Of a DNA stretch of 64,000 nucleotides, positions 53,126 through 63,760 are shown in pieces. A program made the translations under genes and the position numbers. The notes under the pieces are model-generated. The model had not been told where the DNA came from and did no database searches. It was given only the letters and a program-made list of their open reading frames with translations. Every line of letters starts with the position of its first letter. Positions within the stretch are counted from its first letter, which is position 1. The DNA comes from Bdellovibrionota bacterium (lineage in GTDB: Bacteria > Bdellovibrionota > Bdellovibrionia > Bdellovibrionales > Bdellovibrionaceae): NCBI GenBank assembly GCA_963170155.1, contig CAUJGP010000021.1, forward strand, positions 1-64,000, in the 5' to 3' direction.

Positions 53126-53908
53126 ATGAGGCGAGAGTCCAATTCTTTTCAGAGAGATGGGGTTATTCATAAATATTATTTTTCCAAAAATAGTATTTTA
53201 GTGATTTTTTATTTTCTCTTTTTAAGCTCTCCGTGGATTTATGCGCAATCTTCTTTGAGTTTGGAAAAACGTATTGAAGGGTTTCAGCAGCATCAAAAAG
53301 AGCAACAAAGTTTTACTCATGAGAGAGAAAAACTAAGAGATGAATATTTAAAAGAGCAAGCGGCGCAAAAAAAAGAAAAAGAGCGGGCTTATAATGAATA
53401 TTTAAAAAGCTTGGCAAAAAAACAGAAGAAAGTGGATCCAGAAAGCACGCCAGCTTATGAAGAGTATTTGTTAGAGAAATGGAGATGGAAAAATAATCCA
53501 GAAAAAAAAACCTCTCAAGAAGCCCTTGTTAAGCAAAAGAAAAAAATTCGTTCTAGTGAAAAATCCAAAAAATTTGAGATGGATGAGTATTCCTTAAATT
53601 CTTCAGAAGAAAACAGAGTGCCTTACAACAAACGAAGGTCTTTTCATGGTGACAATGCAAAGCCTGGTGGATTTACGGGTGCAACTCCAAGTGGTGCTGA
53701 CAGCGGAGGGCGAGCCCCTTATGTGCCTCCTCCTCCCCCTCCTCCGTCTTTTGATAATGATCTTCCAGAGTTTGAAGAGAATAATGATATACCGCCCCCG
53801 CCCCCTCCTGACTTTGGGCCGGGAGGAATGGGTGAGCCTTTTGGAGGAGAGCCAGCTCCATTTATGCCGCCCCCACCGCCTCCACCTCCTCTCAATAATG
53901 AGTTTTAA
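53126..53908 (+). CDS. Exported polyproline protein with coiled-coil
   Basis: A 260-residue protein. A signal peptide with a long n-region ends near WIYAQS. Residues about 45-165 are Lys/Glu/Gln-rich and predicted coiled-coil (KEQQSFTHEREKLRDEYLKE and relatives). The C-terminal 75 residues are Gly/Pro-rich with three runs of 7, 6 and 8 prolines separated by acidic stretches (DNDLPEFEENNDI). I do not recognise the protein. The pattern resembles formin FH1 or Listeria ActA proline repeats, but similarity of low-complexity sequence proves nothing. It stands alone. Confidence 0.75.
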   Translation: MRRESNSFQRDGVIHKYYFSKNSILVIFYFLFLSSPWIYAQSSLSLEKRIEGFQQHQKEQQSFTHEREKLRDEYLKEQAAQKKEKERAYNEYLKSLAKKQKKVDPESTPAYEEYLLEKWRWKNNPEKKTSQEALVKQKKKIRSSEKSKKFEMDEYSLNSSEENRVPYNKRRSFHGDNAKPGGFTGATPSGADSGGRAPYVPPPPPPPSFDNDLPEFEENNDIPPPPPPDFGPGGMGEPFGGEPAPFMPPPPPPPPLNNEF

Positions 53909-54074: not shown

Positions 54075-55142
54075 ATGGAAGATCAGGCTTCACTGAGGCA
54101 ATTACTGGATAAGCGTATTGTTTTTTTAGATGGTGCCATTGGTACAATGGTACAAACTTTTAAATTAACAGAAGAGGATTTTCGCGGAGAGCGCTTCAAA
54201 GAACATGGTAAGGATTTGAAGGGTAATTATGATTTACTTTGTCTTACGAGACCTGATCTTATTAAAGATATACATAAAATGTATTTAGAATCAGGAGCTG
54301 ATATCATTGAAACTAACAGTTTTAATGGAACGGCGATTTCTCAAGCTGATTATGGGATGCAAGATGCTGTTCATGAGATAAACGTAGCCGCCGCACGGCT
54401 AGCGAAACAAGCGGTCTTAGAATATCAAAAAACAAATCCTCGTCCTTGTTTCGTGGCAGGAGCCCTCGGTCCTACAAATAAAACATTATCGCTTTCTCCC
54501 AAGGCGACAGATCCTGGTTTTCGAGAGATTTCTTTTGATGAAATGGTCGAGGATTATTACAATCAAGTCGCAGCCCTCGTTGAAGGAGGCGTTGACTTAT
54601 TGCTACCCGAGACGAGCTTTGACACGCTCAATATGAAAGCTTGTATTTATGCCATCAAGAAGTTCGAAGAGGAAACAGGGGTTCGCAAGGATTTGTTTCT
54701 GTCGATGACGATAACAGATTTATCTGGGAGAAGTCTATCAGGTCAAACTGTAGAGGCATTTTGGAATAGTATTCGTCATGCAAAGCCACTTTTAGTTGGT
54801 ATGAATTGTGGGTTAGGCTCCAAAGAGATGCGTCCATTTTTGGAGGAATTTTCGCGCATTGCGGATTGTTATTTAGCATGTTACCCCAGTGCAGGTTTGC
54901 CGAATCCTTTAAATCCCATAAGATATGATGAAACTCCCGAGAGGTTCACAAACACCTTGAAGGATTACGCCGAGGCTGGTTGGTTGAATTTAGCGGGAGG
55001 CTGCTGTGGAACAACACCAGCTCATATCAAAGCGATTGTTGAGACTCTTTCTCCTATTGCAAAAAGAAAAATTCCAAAGATAGAATTAACAACTCGTCTC
55101 TCGGGGCTGGAGCCCTTTAACGTTCAATCAGAAGATGTTTAA
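54075..55142 (+). CDS. Homocysteine-binding module of methionine synthase, stand-alone
   Basis: A 355-residue protein equal to the N-terminal Hcy domain of cobalamin-dependent MetH: FLDGAIGTMVQTF, ADIIETNSFNGTAISQADYG, the zinc ligands in GMNCGLGS and LAGGCCGTTPAHI. It ends in TTRLSGLEPFNVQSEDV, which in full MetH is the linker to the folate domain. The folate, cobalamin and activation modules are absent and downstream sequence shows no sign of a frameshifted continuation, so the rest must be another gene. A hairpin terminator follows. Confidence 0.88.
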   Translation: MEDQASLRQLLDKRIVFLDGAIGTMVQTFKLTEEDFRGERFKEHGKDLKGNYDLLCLTRPDLIKDIHKMYLESGADIIETNSFNGTAISQADYGMQDAVHEINVAAARLAKQAVLEYQKTNPRPCFVAGALGPTNKTLSLSPKATDPGFREISFDEMVEDYYNQVAALVEGGVDLLLPETSFDTLNMKACIYAIKKFEEETGVRKDLFLSMTITDLSGRSLSGQTVEAFWNSIRHAKPLLVGMNCGLGSKEMRPFLEEFSRIADCYLACYPSAGLPNPLNPIRYDETPERFTNTLKDYAEAGWLNLAGGCCGTTPAHIKAIVETLSPIAKRKIPKIELTTRLSGLEPFNVQSEDV

Positions 55143-57297: not shown

Positions 57298-58569
57298 ATG
57301 AATTATTTAGTGATTGGTCAGGGTGGTCGAGAACACGCCATCATCAAGGCTCTGAAGCAGTCTCCGAATGTTACAAATTTGCACGCGATTCCCGGGAATC
57401 CTGGGATTGCTGAGCTTGTGACTTGTCACTCTTTGGATTGGAAAAATTTTGAAACTATAGAACAGTTTTGTCGTTTTCATCAAATACAAGTGGTAGTGAT
57501 CGGGCCCGAAGATCCTTTTGTCATGGGGCTCAGCGATTATTTGCGTGAAAAAGGATTTCTCGTCGTAGGACCATCAAAAGCTGCCGCTCAATTGGAGGGC
57601 AGTAAAGTTTTTGCTAAACAATTTATGCAAGAGTTTGGAGTGGCAACGGCGAAGGCGGTAGTTGTGCAATCGGTGGACGAGGCGCTTTTGCAGTCCCAAG
57701 AATTCACTCCCCCTTACGTGTTGAAGGCGGATGGCCTTGCTGCGGGAAAGGGAGTTGTTTTATGCAAAACACGAGATGAATTGCGTGAGGCTTCTCAGCA
57801 ATTTTTTGAACAAAAATTATTTGGTGCTGCCAGTGAAAAAGCTTTATTGGAGCAATTTTTGCCTGGTTATGAATTGAGTTTGCTTTTGGTGACCAACGGG
57901 AAAGAGTATCAGTTGTTTCCTGTTGCGCAAGATCACAAATCTTTGCTGGACGGGGATGAAGGCCCTAATACTGGAGGGATGGGAACGATCGCTCCGATGC
58001 TCATGTCTGAGGGCCTGCTTCATGAGATTAAAATAAAAATTATAGAACCCACGTTGCATGGTTTATCAGAAAAAAAGTTATTTTACCGTGGGGTTCTTTT
58101 TCTAGGGCTCATGATCACAAAAGCGGGACCTCAGTTACTGGAGTACAATTGTCGAATGGGTGATCCAGAAACCCAGGTGCTCATGCCTTTGCTTGAGGGT
58201 GATTGGGGTGAGGTTTTTCATCAATTAGCGCGAGGCCAGATTTTACCGATGTCATGGAAATCCATTTATAGTACTTGCGTGGTTTTAGCGGCACCAGGAT
58301 ACCCGAATGCTCCTGAGAAGGGTCTATTGATTGAAGGGGACCCATTGAGTGAAAAGTCTTCAGGGAGTGTTTCGCAATCTTACTTTATTCATGCAGGAAC
58401 AAAGCGGACTTCCACGGGGGAGTGGCAAACAGCAGGAGGGCGAGTTCTTTGTGCCATGGGTGTCGCTGAAACGAAAGAAGCCGCTCGTGCTTTAGCATAT
58501 GAGCAGGCGGGTCTTGTTTCTTGGAGAGGTTTGCAAAAACGATCGGATATTGGTTTGAGAAAATGTTAG
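57298..58569 (+). CDS. purD: Phosphoribosylamine-glycine ligase
   Basis: A 423-residue PurD: MNYLVIGQGGREHAIIKAL (the usual GxGGREHA opening), GPEDPFVMGL, ADGLAAGKGVVLC, and GPNTGGMGTIAP, then GDPETQVLMPLL (ATP-grasp). It carries out the second step of purine synthesis. I use the ATG at 57298 since the family begins here; an upstream TTG adds seven residues. Its end overlaps the start of the AddB-like gene by 7 bases. Confidence 0.95.
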   Translation: MNYLVIGQGGREHAIIKALKQSPNVTNLHAIPGNPGIAELVTCHSLDWKNFETIEQFCRFHQIQVVVIGPEDPFVMGLSDYLREKGFLVVGPSKAAAQLEGSKVFAKQFMQEFGVATAKAVVVQSVDEALLQSQEFTPPYVLKADGLAAGKGVVLCKTRDELREASQQFFEQKLFGAASEKALLEQFLPGYELSLLLVTNGKEYQLFPVAQDHKSLLDGDEGPNTGGMGTIAPMLMSEGLLHEIKIKIIEPTLHGLSEKKLFYRGVLFLGLMITKAGPQLLEYNCRMGDPETQVLMPLLEGDWGEVFHQLARGQILPMSWKSIYSTCVVLAAPGYPNAPEKGLLIEGDPLSEKSSGSVSQSYFIHAGTKRTSTGEWQTAGGRVLCAMGVAETKEAARALAYEQAGLVSWRGLQKRSDIGLRKC

Positions 58570-61346
58570 AATTGATTCCGTACTCTTCATTGGAGGAAAA
58601 GAATAAATTTTTGCAAGCCTGTGATTTTTCTGACAGAACCCTCATTGTTCCGGATCTTGTATCGAAGTTATATTGGCAAGATCAAAGAGAACAAAAAACA
58701 GATTTTATTAATCAAAATCCAATTTTGAGAGCTGAAGATTTTTGGAAAACCCTATTGCAACGGACTCGGACAGATATCAACTTTGTCAGTCCGGCATGGA
58801 TGTCCTCCTATTTAAAACAAATTTTAAAGACGGAGTGGTTGGAGTCGGTGGGCCTTCCTTACGCGAAAACACCGACCCTATTGAAGGCGATGAGGGAGTT
58901 CTTGCCAATTCTCTCTCATCCAGAATCTTGCGAAATCATGGAACATTGGTTTGATGAGGTGCAAGCCGGACAAGGTTCGTGGCGGCGATGGTTTGAATTA
59001 TCCACCTTGGCTTGGAAAAATCTTGTGGCTAAGAACGTTCTTCTTCCTGAATGGTCGGCGAGCTTTTTAATTCAATCGCTGCATTTTGAAAATTTTTGGA
59101 ATCGGAATCTAGTGGTGGATTTGGGACCTGAATTAAGAACTATGGAGGTTGAACTTTTACAAGCGCTTGCATCGAAAAATCACGTTCAGGTGCTAACTCC
59201 TCATTTTCCGTGGATGGATGAGTTTCGTTGGGTTTCTTACCCTTATAAACAATTTTTATCTCGTCATCATACCGTGAAGAAGCTTTTCATTACTGAAGAG
59301 AACGGGGCTAAGAGAGTCGAGAATGTTCCTCGTCAAAAGAATTTTAGGCGGTATTCTTCTATGTTGGGTGAAATTAAAGCGGCAATCAGTCAAATTCATG
59401 ACTGGGTTCGATCTGGAAAGCGACTTTCAGAAATAGCCTTGATTGCTCCGGACATGGAAATCTATTGGCCGGTCTTAAGTGTTCATTTGAAAAAAGAAGG
59501 ATGGGCTTTTGAAAAGCCAGAAAAAATCAAAATAGGAAGTCTGGGGTCTGTCGTGGCCTGGCTTGCCTATCTCAAAAAACAAAAATCCCCAGAATTGTCG
59601 TTTACCGATTTGCAGCTTGCGGAATTCCATCCGCTTCAACGGAGAAGTTTAAATACGGAAGCAAATACAGAAATCAATCCCGAGACAGGTTTGGAAATAA
59701 ATTCGAATTTAATTTCGTACTCTGATCTTCAAAGTCAATGGGTCATGAAACCCTACAAAAATTCGTCGTTGTTTTCCGATGAAAAAAGAGCTGTCACAGC
59801 TTCTATTTTTTTGAATTGGGCTTTTCAAGTTTGGCCTCATACCTCTTTGCTTCCGGTTATGGTTCTTGAGAGTTGTCAGAAATGGCTTCTAGAAGCTGAA
59901 AAACGAGAAGAACTTTTTGAATCCGAGTGGATTGAGTATTTAGAGGAATATTTGAAAACACAAGAAGAGGAGGTTTTTTCGGAAGTTCCTCAGAGCCTGG
60001 GGGTGTATTCTTTAATGAATGGTCTCCCACTACATAGAAATTTTCATTTTGTATTGGGATGTTCCGAGGCTCAATTGAAGTCGTCAAAAGGATTTGTCAA
60101 CGGAGCCGAGGTGCTGAGTTTACAACATCATACAGGCCATTTGTTAGCCCATCCTGATCGTGATTTCAGAGAGTTTCAGTTGCGAGCTCTCGTGGAGACG
60201 GGATGTGAGCAAGTATTTTGTTTTCCTGAAGCCGATTTTAACGGAACTGAGTTAGTTCCCTCTGTTTTTTGGATGAAAGGGCGAGAGCAGGAAATCAGTG
60301 AAAAATCGTTGTCCTTTTCGCATTTTCATGAATTATCCTCATGGACTCCTGGAGAATGGGAGCAAGAGTTATTGCAATTTGAAAGAAAAAAAGAAAAAAA
60401 TTTTTTTATTGCAGAAAGTGGAGATGTAACCGAAGTCGAAGAGAGAGTGCCTCATCACTTTGAATTTTCTCTTTCTCCGGCCTCATTAAAATCCTATGTG
60501 GAGTGTCCTTTTAAATTTTTTGCAGAAAAAGGTTTAAAGTTAATAGATCCTTTGATTGTGGACCTCGATTTAGATGCCCGAACTCAAGGAGCTCTCCAAC
60601 ATAAACTTTTAGAGCTTTTGACCATGGATCCTTTTGATATTGCGGCTAAACGAAATCAGCTTGAGGAACTCATTGAACAAACCCTAGAGACGCAAAAAGA
60701 ATTTTATTATTCTGAAAAAACCAGGGAGTTGATGCAGCGGCAGCTTAAACAACTGGGGAATCAATTTTTGGATCACGAAGAAAATTATCGAAAAGAATTT
60801 CCACGATTTTACACTTTGGTTCGTGAAGCTTGGTTTCAGAGCTCCATAGCCATCAAAGAAAAAAAGATTTCTTTTAGGGGAAAAATAGACCGGGTGGATG
60901 TTTCATCGGATGGTCAAGCTGCCGTTGTTATTGATTATAAAAACGATATTCGCAGCTACAGTCACGCCTCTTCTTGGATTAAAAACTTGGAATTTCAAAT
61001 GCCGGCCTACGTTCAAGCTTTGGAGTCTGGTTCAGTGAGAAAAGAAAAAGGAAAGAACTTTCCACCTTTGTCTGTTGTTGCCGCTCATTACTATAGTTTG
61101 CGGGATCGCCAACGAAAAGGTTTTACTCTGAAAGAGGTTGATCCCGGCGTGGTGAATTCCCTTACGGCGACAGGAACCCTCACTGTCTCTGAAAAGAACC
61201 AGATCCTGGAAGAGTTTCAAACAATTTTAGTTCGAGTGGCTCAAAATATTTTAGAGGGGGATTTCCGAGCGATCCCTCATCCTAAAACAGATTGTCAAGG
61301 TTGCTCTTGGAGAAATTTATGCCGAACAAGCCAACCGAATTTATAA
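58563..61346 (+). CDS. AddB/RecB-like PD-(D/E)XK nuclease subunit
   Basis: A 927-residue protein. The N-terminal two thirds resemble inactivated UvrD-like helicase domains without a Walker A motif. The C-terminal PD-(D/E)XK domain is intact: FSLSPASLKSYVECPFKFFAE, GALQHKLLELL, GKIDRVDVSSDGQAAVVIDYKND (D and DxK), LEFQMPAYVQAL and the iron-sulphur cluster cysteines CQGCSWRNLC, paired with the earlier VECP. This order is that of AddB and of Cas4-type nucleases. It overlaps purD (7 bases) and the AddA-like gene (28 bases). Confidence 0.8.
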   Translation: MLELIPYSSLEEKNKFLQACDFSDRTLIVPDLVSKLYWQDQREQKTDFINQNPILRAEDFWKTLLQRTRTDINFVSPAWMSSYLKQILKTEWLESVGLPYAKTPTLLKAMREFLPILSHPESCEIMEHWFDEVQAGQGSWRRWFELSTLAWKNLVAKNVLLPEWSASFLIQSLHFENFWNRNLVVDLGPELRTMEVELLQALASKNHVQVLTPHFPWMDEFRWVSYPYKQFLSRHHTVKKLFITEENGAKRVENVPRQKNFRRYSSMLGEIKAAISQIHDWVRSGKRLSEIALIAPDMEIYWPVLSVHLKKEGWAFEKPEKIKIGSLGSVVAWLAYLKKQKSPELSFTDLQLAEFHPLQRRSLNTEANTEINPETGLEINSNLISYSDLQSQWVMKPYKNSSLFSDEKRAVTASIFLNWAFQVWPHTSLLPVMVLESCQKWLLEAEKREELFESEWIEYLEEYLKTQEEEVFSEVPQSLGVYSLMNGLPLHRNFHFVLGCSEAQLKSSKGFVNGAEVLSLQHHTGHLLAHPDRDFREFQLRALVETGCEQVFCFPEADFNGTELVPSVFWMKGREQEISEKSLSFSHFHELSSWTPGEWEQELLQFERKKEKNFFIAESGDVTEVEERVPHHFEFSLSPASLKSYVECPFKFFAEKGLKLIDPLIVDLDLDARTQGALQHKLLELLTMDPFDIAAKRNQLEELIEQTLETQKEFYYSEKTRELMQRQLKQLGNQFLDHEENYRKEFPRFYTLVREAWFQSSIAIKEKKISFRGKIDRVDVSSDGQAAVVIDYKNDIRSYSHASSWIKNLEFQMPAYVQALESGSVRKEKGKNFPPLSVVAAHYYSLRDRQRKGFTLKEVDPGVVNSLTATGTLTVSEKNQILEEFQTILVRVAQNILEGDFRAIPHPKTDCQGCSWRNLCRTSQPNL

Positions 61347-63760
61347 ATACGATGGTCACGGCGGGAGCTGGAGCGGGTAAAACTTATGGCTTGATCCATA
61401 AAATCGTGGATTTAGTCAGAGAGTCAGTGGATCGTGATTCAGAGCACTTTCCACGTTTTGTGGTGACCACCTTTACGCGCAAAGCGACCCAAGAGGTTCG
61501 TGAAAGGCTTTTATCAAAAGCGTTGGAGCTCAGGCGAACAGACCCTGTTTTTGGTGAAATATTTTTAAACTTTCTGAAGAGCTCCGGTTTTTTGATGGTC
61601 TCTACCATTCATGGAGTCTTGAATCTTTTTTTGAAGCAATATGGTTCTTTGATAGGACTTAATCCTGATTTCAAAGTGAAACCATCTTCTCCCAGACTTC
61701 TCACTCAAACTCTGCATGAGCTGTTTTTACTTCATCCTACAATGATGACTCTGGTTAAAAAATATGGATGGAAAAATCTGAAGTTTTTTTTGCTCGAGTA
61801 TCATAAGGCTAAGACTTTTAATCCACGGATGGAAGGGCTTCCAGATTCCTATTTTTACGGTTTTTGGGAAAGAAAAATAAAATCAATTTATGAAGCCGCT
61901 TTACACTTGTTACGATATATAGAACCTCTCCTGGCTCAAACAAAAGGTGAGAGCTTGTCAAAGTTTTACGGAGGATTGAATGACATCATTTATTCTTTAA
62001 ATGAAAAAAAAGAGTTGTGGAGTGATTTTGAATCTTTAAAAAAAATCTATCAGAAATTACCCCGCAACTTAGGGCCCCTGAAACAATGGGATGAATCTTA
62101 TAAAAATTTGCGCACGCAAATGATGGATGATCTTGCGGCATTGAATGATGACTTCCTCACAATTAAAGAAAATTTTATTCATCATCATCAGGATGCCCTT
62201 CAGTTGCAAGAGCTTGGGCTTGAATTTTCACAGATGTGGTTTAAAAAGAAACTGGAACTGGGCGAATTAGACATTGAAGATTTGGAGTTGTTGAGTCTTT
62301 ATATTCTTCGTCATTATCCGGAGCAAACTAAAAAATTTTCTGAATCTTGGAATTATTGGTTTATTGATGAATATCAAGACACTAGTCCCATTCAAGTTCA
62401 AATCCTCAATGACATGATAGGAGCTTGCCCTCATTATGTTGTCGGTGATCCCCAACAATCTATTTATTTTTTTAGGGGAGCACGGAGTAAGGTTTTCTAT
62501 GAAAAACTCAATTTATTTAAAAAAACACAGGCCAGAATTGAAGAAAAAAAAATCAATCGGCGCTCTTTTGCTCCCACGTTGTATTTTATCAACGATTTGA
62601 TGGATCAGATTAATAAACACCAATTTTCTCCCATGGATTCTTTGAGCGACAATGAAACCAAGGATTTATTGGCGGGCCATTTTTACTTGACGCCGGATAA
62701 AAATGAAGAGCTGCATTTCAACCAGATCATAAAAGTTTTAATGCAACTATTGGAAGAGGGAGTACCTCCTTCGCAAATCGCGATTTTATGTCGGGAGAAC
62801 AGCGAACTTCAAAGAGTGTACGATAAAATCAGATCAGCGGGTTTGCCAGCTCAAGTCTATTCTAAGGGGCGATTTTTAGAAGATCGTCAGGTTCGAGATG
62901 CGTTGTGCTTATGGCACTTTTTGGTTAATCCCTACGATGATATGAATTTAGTCGAATTATTGAGATCTCCATGGTTTCGTGTTTCAGATCAAATTCTTTT
63001 AGAAGTGAGTTTTCAAAAGAGCGATTATCTTTGGAATCGCATTCAAACTCTGGATTTAGAGCCTTTGCTAAAACTCCGTCAGGGACTTCAGGACTTATCT
63101 CACGAAAGTCATTTTTGGATTTGGCAAAAACTACTGATTGATTCTATGGCGTTTTATGATTGTACTCAACAAGATCCCAGTGGACGTAAAGAGGCCAATC
63201 TTTGGAAACTCATTTCAATCATTCATGAAGAAATTAAAATGGGGACACTTGATTATGCAGATCCTCTGAATCGAGCCTTGTCCCTGGAGAATCAGAATGA
63301 AAACGAGGCTCCGTCCATTCGAGAATCTCACCAGATTCAGCTCATGACTATCCACGGAGCTAAGGGGTTGGAGTTTGAACATGTGATTCTGCCTTTTCTC
63401 AATCATTCACGAAAAAAAGAAAGCACAGGCTTTTTCACGACCGATCTTGAAAGCCAGTATTGGGTTCATTCTTTTATGAATGAATCTAATCGGACGACTC
63501 AGAGTCATTACTTTGCTCGCGAAGTGGCAGAGGCCATGAATTCTCTTTTAGATGACGAATTCGAACGACTTTTTTATGTTGCTATAACAAGAGCTAAAAG
63601 AGGATTATACTTCTTCTGTCCTTCTTCAGAGGACGAGTTTTCTAAAACAGGGTGGGCTCGCCATTTGCAAAGTTTTATCTCAAAGGGATCAGGTCGGTTC
63701 ATTGCAGAATCCGGGCGCTATGAGTTTCAGGTGGAAGATCTTCTCCCCGGAACTCCATGA
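61319..63760 (+). CDS. AddA/UvrD-like superfamily 1 DNA helicase
   Basis: An 813-residue helicase with all SF1A motifs: VTAGAGAGKTYG (I), TTFTRKATQEVRERL (Ia), STIHG, WFIDEYQDTSPIQVQIL (II), VVGDPQQSIYFFRGA (III), a long middle region, LMTIHGAKGLEFEHVI (V) and LFYVAITRAKRGLYFF (VI). Full AddA continues with a RecB-type nuclease domain; here only about 50 residues follow motif VI. Together with the gene upstream it probably makes a DNA-end-processing complex with one nuclease. TTGGAG is before the ATG at 61319. Confidence 0.85.
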   Translation: MPNKPTEFINTMVTAGAGAGKTYGLIHKIVDLVRESVDRDSEHFPRFVVTTFTRKATQEVRERLLSKALELRRTDPVFGEIFLNFLKSSGFLMVSTIHGVLNLFLKQYGSLIGLNPDFKVKPSSPRLLTQTLHELFLLHPTMMTLVKKYGWKNLKFFLLEYHKAKTFNPRMEGLPDSYFYGFWERKIKSIYEAALHLLRYIEPLLAQTKGESLSKFYGGLNDIIYSLNEKKELWSDFESLKKIYQKLPRNLGPLKQWDESYKNLRTQMMDDLAALNDDFLTIKENFIHHHQDALQLQELGLEFSQMWFKKKLELGELDIEDLELLSLYILRHYPEQTKKFSESWNYWFIDEYQDTSPIQVQILNDMIGACPHYVVGDPQQSIYFFRGARSKVFYEKLNLFKKTQARIEEKKINRRSFAPTLYFINDLMDQINKHQFSPMDSLSDNETKDLLAGHFYLTPDKNEELHFNQIIKVLMQLLEEGVPPSQIAILCRENSELQRVYDKIRSAGLPAQVYSKGRFLEDRQVRDALCLWHFLVNPYDDMNLVELLRSPWFRVSDQILLEVSFQKSDYLWNRIQTLDLEPLLKLRQGLQDLSHESHFWIWQKLLIDSMAFYDCTQQDPSGRKEANLWKLISIIHEEIKMGTLDYADPLNRALSLENQNENEAPSIRESHQIQLMTIHGAKGLEFEHVILPFLNHSRKKESTGFFTTDLESQYWVHSFMNESNRTTQSHYFAREVAEAMNSLLDDEFERLFYVAITRAKRGLYFFCPSSEDEFSKTGWARHLQSFISKGSGRFIAESGRYEFQVEDLLPGTP

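Follow-up and report, generated by a model that had tools for sequence, protein, structure and literature searches.

A putatively exported protein with a polyproline tail in the Bdellovibrio family

Described polyproline systems and the architecture of the protein

Among described polyproline proteins, two kinds lend themselves to comparison with the gene considered here. The first comprises the ligands of EVH1 domains and profilin, such as ActA and the FH1 segment of formins. Like these, the present family carries proline runs with acidic flanks, and the motif FPPPP occurs in 31 of its 58 full-length proteins; the protein studied here, in contrast, lacks FPPPP, and no homology is claimed. No EVH1 or profilin-type reader is known in bacteria, and the binding to such domains raised in the original prediction is therefore not supported. 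The second comparison is with TonB and TolA, whose general resemblance to our protein extends to export (predicted here), a charged helix and a proline-rich segment; in PMC12204202, the proline-rich domain of TonB is described as spanning the periplasm. Unlike TonB and TolA, the present protein lacks their C-terminal domain (no Pfam match at E 0.1), its signal looks cleavable where theirs is retained as an anchor, and it consists of a helix followed by a proline tail that continues to the very C-terminus.

The gene occupies 53126..53908 on the forward strand of the window, i.e., the whole 64,000-nucleotide stretch of DNA that was analyzed; it starts with ATG and encodes a polyproline-tail protein of 260 aa (stop codon counted in the coordinates), and all features below lie on the same strand. 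Its first 40 residues (53126..53245) read as a predicted export signal, in which the hydrophobic stretch ILVIFYFLFL precedes a plausible signal-peptidase-I site with likely cleavage after A40, between IYA and Q. The hydropathy rule used (a hydrophobic ten-mer, then a small-x-small site) is a loose one that was run without a control; 59 of 60 family proteins satisfy it, one of them (G069) with Cys at +1, and export is thus well suggested for the family by its N-terminal sequences. For the window protein, AlphaFold2 (mean pLDDT 72.8, pTM 0.34) models helices at aa 36-102, 109-122 and 125-154, with a disordered tail after them. The mature part of the first helix (aa 41-102, 53246..53431; pLDDT mostly >90) is homologous to proteins of sister families that consist of the head only, and the other two helices make up the head's second helical segment (aa 109-154, 53450..53587). 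Overlapping the latter is a conserved head end (aa 151-171, 53576..53638), where alignments reveal near-invariant E154, R164 and R170, and relatives read ELGL...ERPRxDxxKR. A linker rich in Gly, Ser and Ala (aa 177-200, 53654..53725; pLDDT <50 over 177-196) then leads to three runs of 7 (aa 201-207, 53726..53746), 6 (aa 223-228, 53792..53809) and 8 prolines (aa 248-255, 53867..53890), the second of which is preceded by NNDI and aligns with a run in relatives. The protein closes with LNNEF (53891..53905), whose final aromatic residue is conserved. The mature head is K- and E-rich, with 33 K+R and 25 D+E over aa 41-176, versus 0 K+R and 10 D+E in the tail (aa 201-260).

The original prediction had the three proline runs exactly right, and its signal peptide stays plausible as an export-type N-terminus. 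Its long Lys/Glu-rich coiled coil survives as a K/E-rich helical head, but as three modeled helices and not one continuous coiled coil; likewise, the stretches between the runs are acidic, as it stated, but not acidic alone, for they are also rich in Gly and Phe. EF-P, named there as a requirement for translating long proline runs, is encoded in the window genome, and the inferred predator-like host is borne out by the family to which the genome belongs.

Proline codons within the three runs are a mixture of CCT, CCC, CCG and CCA, so the runs are not a simple DNA repeat. Across the 2.85-Mb window genome, six successive CCN triplets are found at 11 separate places (26 overlapping matches), three of which lie in this gene; among the other translated ORFs at these places, only one has more than one run of at least 6 Pro. 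The proline runs of the gene exceed what chance would produce. At 40.4%, its G+C content equals that of the window (40.0%), and a recent foreign origin is therefore not suggested. It is flanked by a nitroreductase gene on one side and a homocysteine methyltransferase gene on the other; promoter-like sites nearby were at chance level only, and a terminator was not seen.

Beyond the family itself, the absence of a described relative, as originally predicted, held across the libraries searched. NCBIfam and PHROGs returned weak, chance-like hits only, neither a Foldseek structural search nor an hmmsearch of PDB sequences found a match in the PDB, and the domain libraries revealed no outer-membrane or secretion domain. 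A full-text literature search yielded no paper on the gene among the matches listed, although screens that give HD100 tag numbers only could escape it; the main text of PMC12034629 contains no Bd20 or Bd21 tag, and searching for tags near a presumed HD100 position turned up nothing on the gene.

Distribution, the sohB locus and head-only relatives

A phmmer-type search from a single sequence yielded relatives in 18 of the 38 other genomes (19 of 39 including the window's own), and a profile built from 18 sequences matched all 25 family members of that first sample. Extended to the whole family set, the profile matched 61 of 66 genomes, once in each except G056, where the match falls into two pieces. 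Homologues are thus present in close relatives, whose lack would have spoken against the original prediction. Identity between the window protein and other family members is 26-37%, except in a single short fragment and in a few members at 21-24%. These members presumably include Bdellovibrio bacteriovorus HD100, B. bacteriovorus Tiberius and Bdellovibrio exovorus JSS; scans of named genomes gave 20 pattern matches with the window protein and 583 with an 8-sequence alignment, none of them confirmed by tblastn. A second match in G024 (L027) was left out, as on reading it is an unrelated helical protein. In the five genomes without a match (G053, G061, G062, G073 and G074), a search for SohB, an S49 protease, returned a weak S49-protease hit or none. 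Since a true SohB is likewise missing there, these assemblies lack the entire locus, and little can be concluded from the missing gene.

The frame, whose disruption in relatives was another point at issue, is mostly intact. In G056 the gene is broken in two, with a head piece lying beside sohB (L180:4504-4956) and a tail piece beside yciB (L181:4424-5029), about 387 kb apart, with a 20-base string common to both pieces at the break; in G044 a broken copy has its tail replaced by other sequence. These breaks may reflect either rearrangement or misassembly, and with broken copies in two genomes, some strains may be able to do without the gene. Excluding these two, as well as G020, in which a contig end cuts the gene, leaves the 58 full-length proteins counted throughout.

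The locus was surveyed in 59 other family genomes, comprising every matching one but G056. In 57 of the 59, the gene is divergent from and directly beside sohB, and in some of them, G055 among them, the two frames overlap; in G017 the divergent genes are separated by 2.8 kb, and in G071 the contig ends first. On the gene's other side, yciB is the usual neighbor. The window genome departs from this arrangement in that the gene is neither divergent from sohB nor next to yciB. Instead, sohB and yciB are adjacent at L058:5588-7430, with 46 bases between their open frames and the gene missing; this is the ancestral sohB-yciB site, empty of the gene. The gene has moved, or was lost at the sohB site and regained.

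Relatives also occur outside the family. A class-level profile search matched 87 of 143 genomes, 26 of them outside the family, and a phylum-level search matched 86 of 368. The outside matches end at profile positions 124-162 of 235, apart from G038, where the match reaches position 191 and was read through stops, and G105, where one stretch matches positions 172-230 within a 465-aa frame. We read 26 outside loci, drawn from 24 of the 26 outside genomes (G089 and G134 were left out) together with G025 and G029. All 26 encode short charged proteins with an N-terminus that looks export-like by eye, and a proline run longer than three is absent from every one of them. In 22 of the 26, the head protein is divergent beside sohB; in G033 and G034 the neighborhood of sohB showed no such ORF, and at L065, L068 and L199 a head protein is present in genomes without a true SohB. 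In a profile-profile comparison of family and outside sequences (hhalign), the head alone aligns (probability 99.2%, E 1.3e-19).

The uncharacterized head-only proteins of sister families in the order (for example L066, L067, L100, L102, L183 and L185-L198) are the nearest known counterpart on these grounds: they share the homologous head, are mostly divergent from sohB, and, as with the outside-family protein modeled by AlphaFold2, are predicted to form two long helices. In contrast to the window protein, most stop at or soon after the ELGL-like motif, without a linker or tail. Among the genomes searched, the proline tail is confined to the Bdellovibrio family, and with head homology but no tail outside it, the tail looks like an addition, made within the family, to an older helical protein.

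Selection and motif pattern in the tail

Four close pairs, picked from 12 as being unsaturated and from different clusters, and all from genus g7, were used to compare substitutions in tail and head. Pooled, they show 3 non-synonymous changes in 597 sites versus 90 synonymous changes in 198 sites in the tail, and 38 in 1203 versus 133 in 315 in the head; these counts ignore changes in run length, and the window's own genus contributes no close pair. Of all 12 pairs, 11 have a lower pN in the tail than in the head. The exception is the g6 pair G076-G077 (0.034 in the tail versus 0.023 in the head), which was counted against the docking role proposed below. Where close pairs exist, amino-acid substitutions in the tail are strongly selected against. 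A near-constant tail among close relatives points to a real job in the cell envelope.

What is retained across genera is the pattern of runs. Runs of at least 4 Pro occur in every one of the 58 full-length proteins; two or more are present in 51 and three or more in 38, with a reduced set in G017, G070 and G072. Run length ranges from 4 to 12 across genera and is 11, 11 and 12 among HD100-like strains. The runs keep their places in relatives while their lengths vary, an outcome that favors a functional tail, as the original prediction had anticipated for conserved positions. The spacers are rich in D, E, F and G and contain almost no K or R; in 55 of the 58 proteins, no K or R follows the first PPP. 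The C-terminal residue is F or Y in an equal number (55/58), with G011, G015 and G017 lacking an aromatic end.

The runs are mostly preceded by an aliphatic residue or F, often with D or E before that, and [DE][IVLMF]PPPP is found in 51 of the 58 proteins. Frequencies were taken from 25 per-genus representatives (more than one species for g3, g5, g6 and g11), in which I precedes 25 of 63 runs versus 5% of non-Pro tail residues and F is the last residue in 22 of 25, with related sequences treated as independent in both counts. D or E stands at position -2 of only 31 of the 63 runs versus a background of 29%, and the pre-run motif partly reflects tail composition. Overall, what is conserved in the tail is a pattern of short motifs and not a length.

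Elsewhere in the window genome (contig C24, near 154,600), a 473-aa frame at L116:1287-2705 (-) carries EIPPPPPPP, NEIPPPPP, NDIPPPPP and NELPPPPPPPPPP, motifs of the kind present in the tail. By eye, its N-terminus resembles that of a lipoprotein and a membrane stretch lies at its C-terminus; it has no Pfam match.

Possible roles of the protein

The reading that we favor, and to which we give about an even chance, is that the protein is an exported (periplasmic or envelope) adaptor, with its head on an older envelope partner and its tail serving as a flexible, multi-site docking string. The location, partners and role are what we infer. The head would sit on an ancestral partner in the envelope, and the tail would present two or three polyproline-II docking motifs and the C-terminal F motif to one or more putative exported proteins, which would be gathered or tethered by it. 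Only the short register at the [DE][I/F]PPPP end would need to be read, so run length would be free to drift. The frame at L116, with its motifs of the same kind, was counted in favor of this docking string. A narrower proposal, which we regard as tentative and on balance doubtful, is that an exported polyproline-reading system exists in these bacteria, in which the tail motifs and at least one further exported protein are read by a novel putative periplasmic domain. If true, this reader would build an envelope complex specific to Bdellovibrio-type bacteria and would work in the manner of EVH1 or SH3 scaffolds in eukaryotes, while not being homologous to these. More generally, a probably exported protein that is retained across a family of predatory bacteria, has no name in the libraries searched and carries a tail mostly under tighter constraint than the head makes a good candidate for an envelope function peculiar to this lineage. 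As a peptide, the tail could serve directly as bait for a partner, with the head-only proteins of sister families as a natural control.

Other roles seem less probable than docking. A periplasmic spacer or rod, with the head and the proline tail bridging or stiffening the periplasm as the proline-rich part of TonB does, is unlikely. The export signal, the long helix (about 10 nm if straight), a proline-rich tail of about 18.6 nm if fully extended, and the published description of TonB were all counted for it. Yet the single runs of 7, 6 and 8 prolines measure only about 2.2, 1.9 and 2.5 nm, which makes a rod improbable; no TonB_C or other anchor domain was found with Pfam, and the suppression of substitutions in the spacers, alongside such variable run lengths, fits motifs better than length. 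The rigid extension through the periplasm offered in the original prediction is thus not supported, given the short runs, the Gly/Asp-rich spacers between them and a tail modeled as disordered.

Equally unlikely, in our view, is a factor, secreted or on the surface, that makes contact with prey in the attack. Predicted export, and the acquisition of the tail in what is presumably the family of the known Bdellovibrio predators, are consistent with such a factor, but the protein occurs in the presumed epibiotic B. exovorus as it does in periplasm-invading species and hence is not tied to prey entry, and it carries none of the outer-membrane or secretion domains sought.

We are more skeptical still that the protein is a partner, regulator or substrate of the divergently encoded SohB. 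The near-universal pairing of the two genes in the family, its persistence at most outside loci and the joint absence of both from five family genomes all speak for a link. On the other hand, divergent neighbors may have just a promoter region in common, and with the two genes kept apart in the window genome and three outside head proteins in genomes without a true SohB, a link is possible but not required. Finally, low-complexity drift of a functionless tail, to which varying run lengths between genera and, slightly, among HD100-like strains might point, is highly improbable: the substitution pattern, in genus g7 at least, contradicts it, and the mixed proline codons and the retention of runs in all full-length proteins also speak against it.

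Several other frames in the window and its genome deserve mention in their own right. Two of them concern proline: a 625-aa frame at L105:571-2445 (+) on contig C3 has a polyproline segment and a TonB_C score below the cutoff (22.4 vs 24.6 bits), and an export-like frame at L125:1324-2379 (+) on contig C28, of no convincing family, has ten consecutive prolines close to its N-terminus. Within the window, 54075-55142 (+) encodes a stand-alone homocysteine S-methyltransferase domain of 355 aa, as judged among the window's large ORFs; matches to this domain in other genomes lie in an open frame of 1171-1279 aa in 15 of 17, as in full-length MetH. Farther along, 58521-63760 (+) holds adjacent frames for a PD-(D/E)XK nuclease (941 aa) and a UvrD-type helicase (822 aa), an ordinary pair whose arrangement we take to be AddAB-like.
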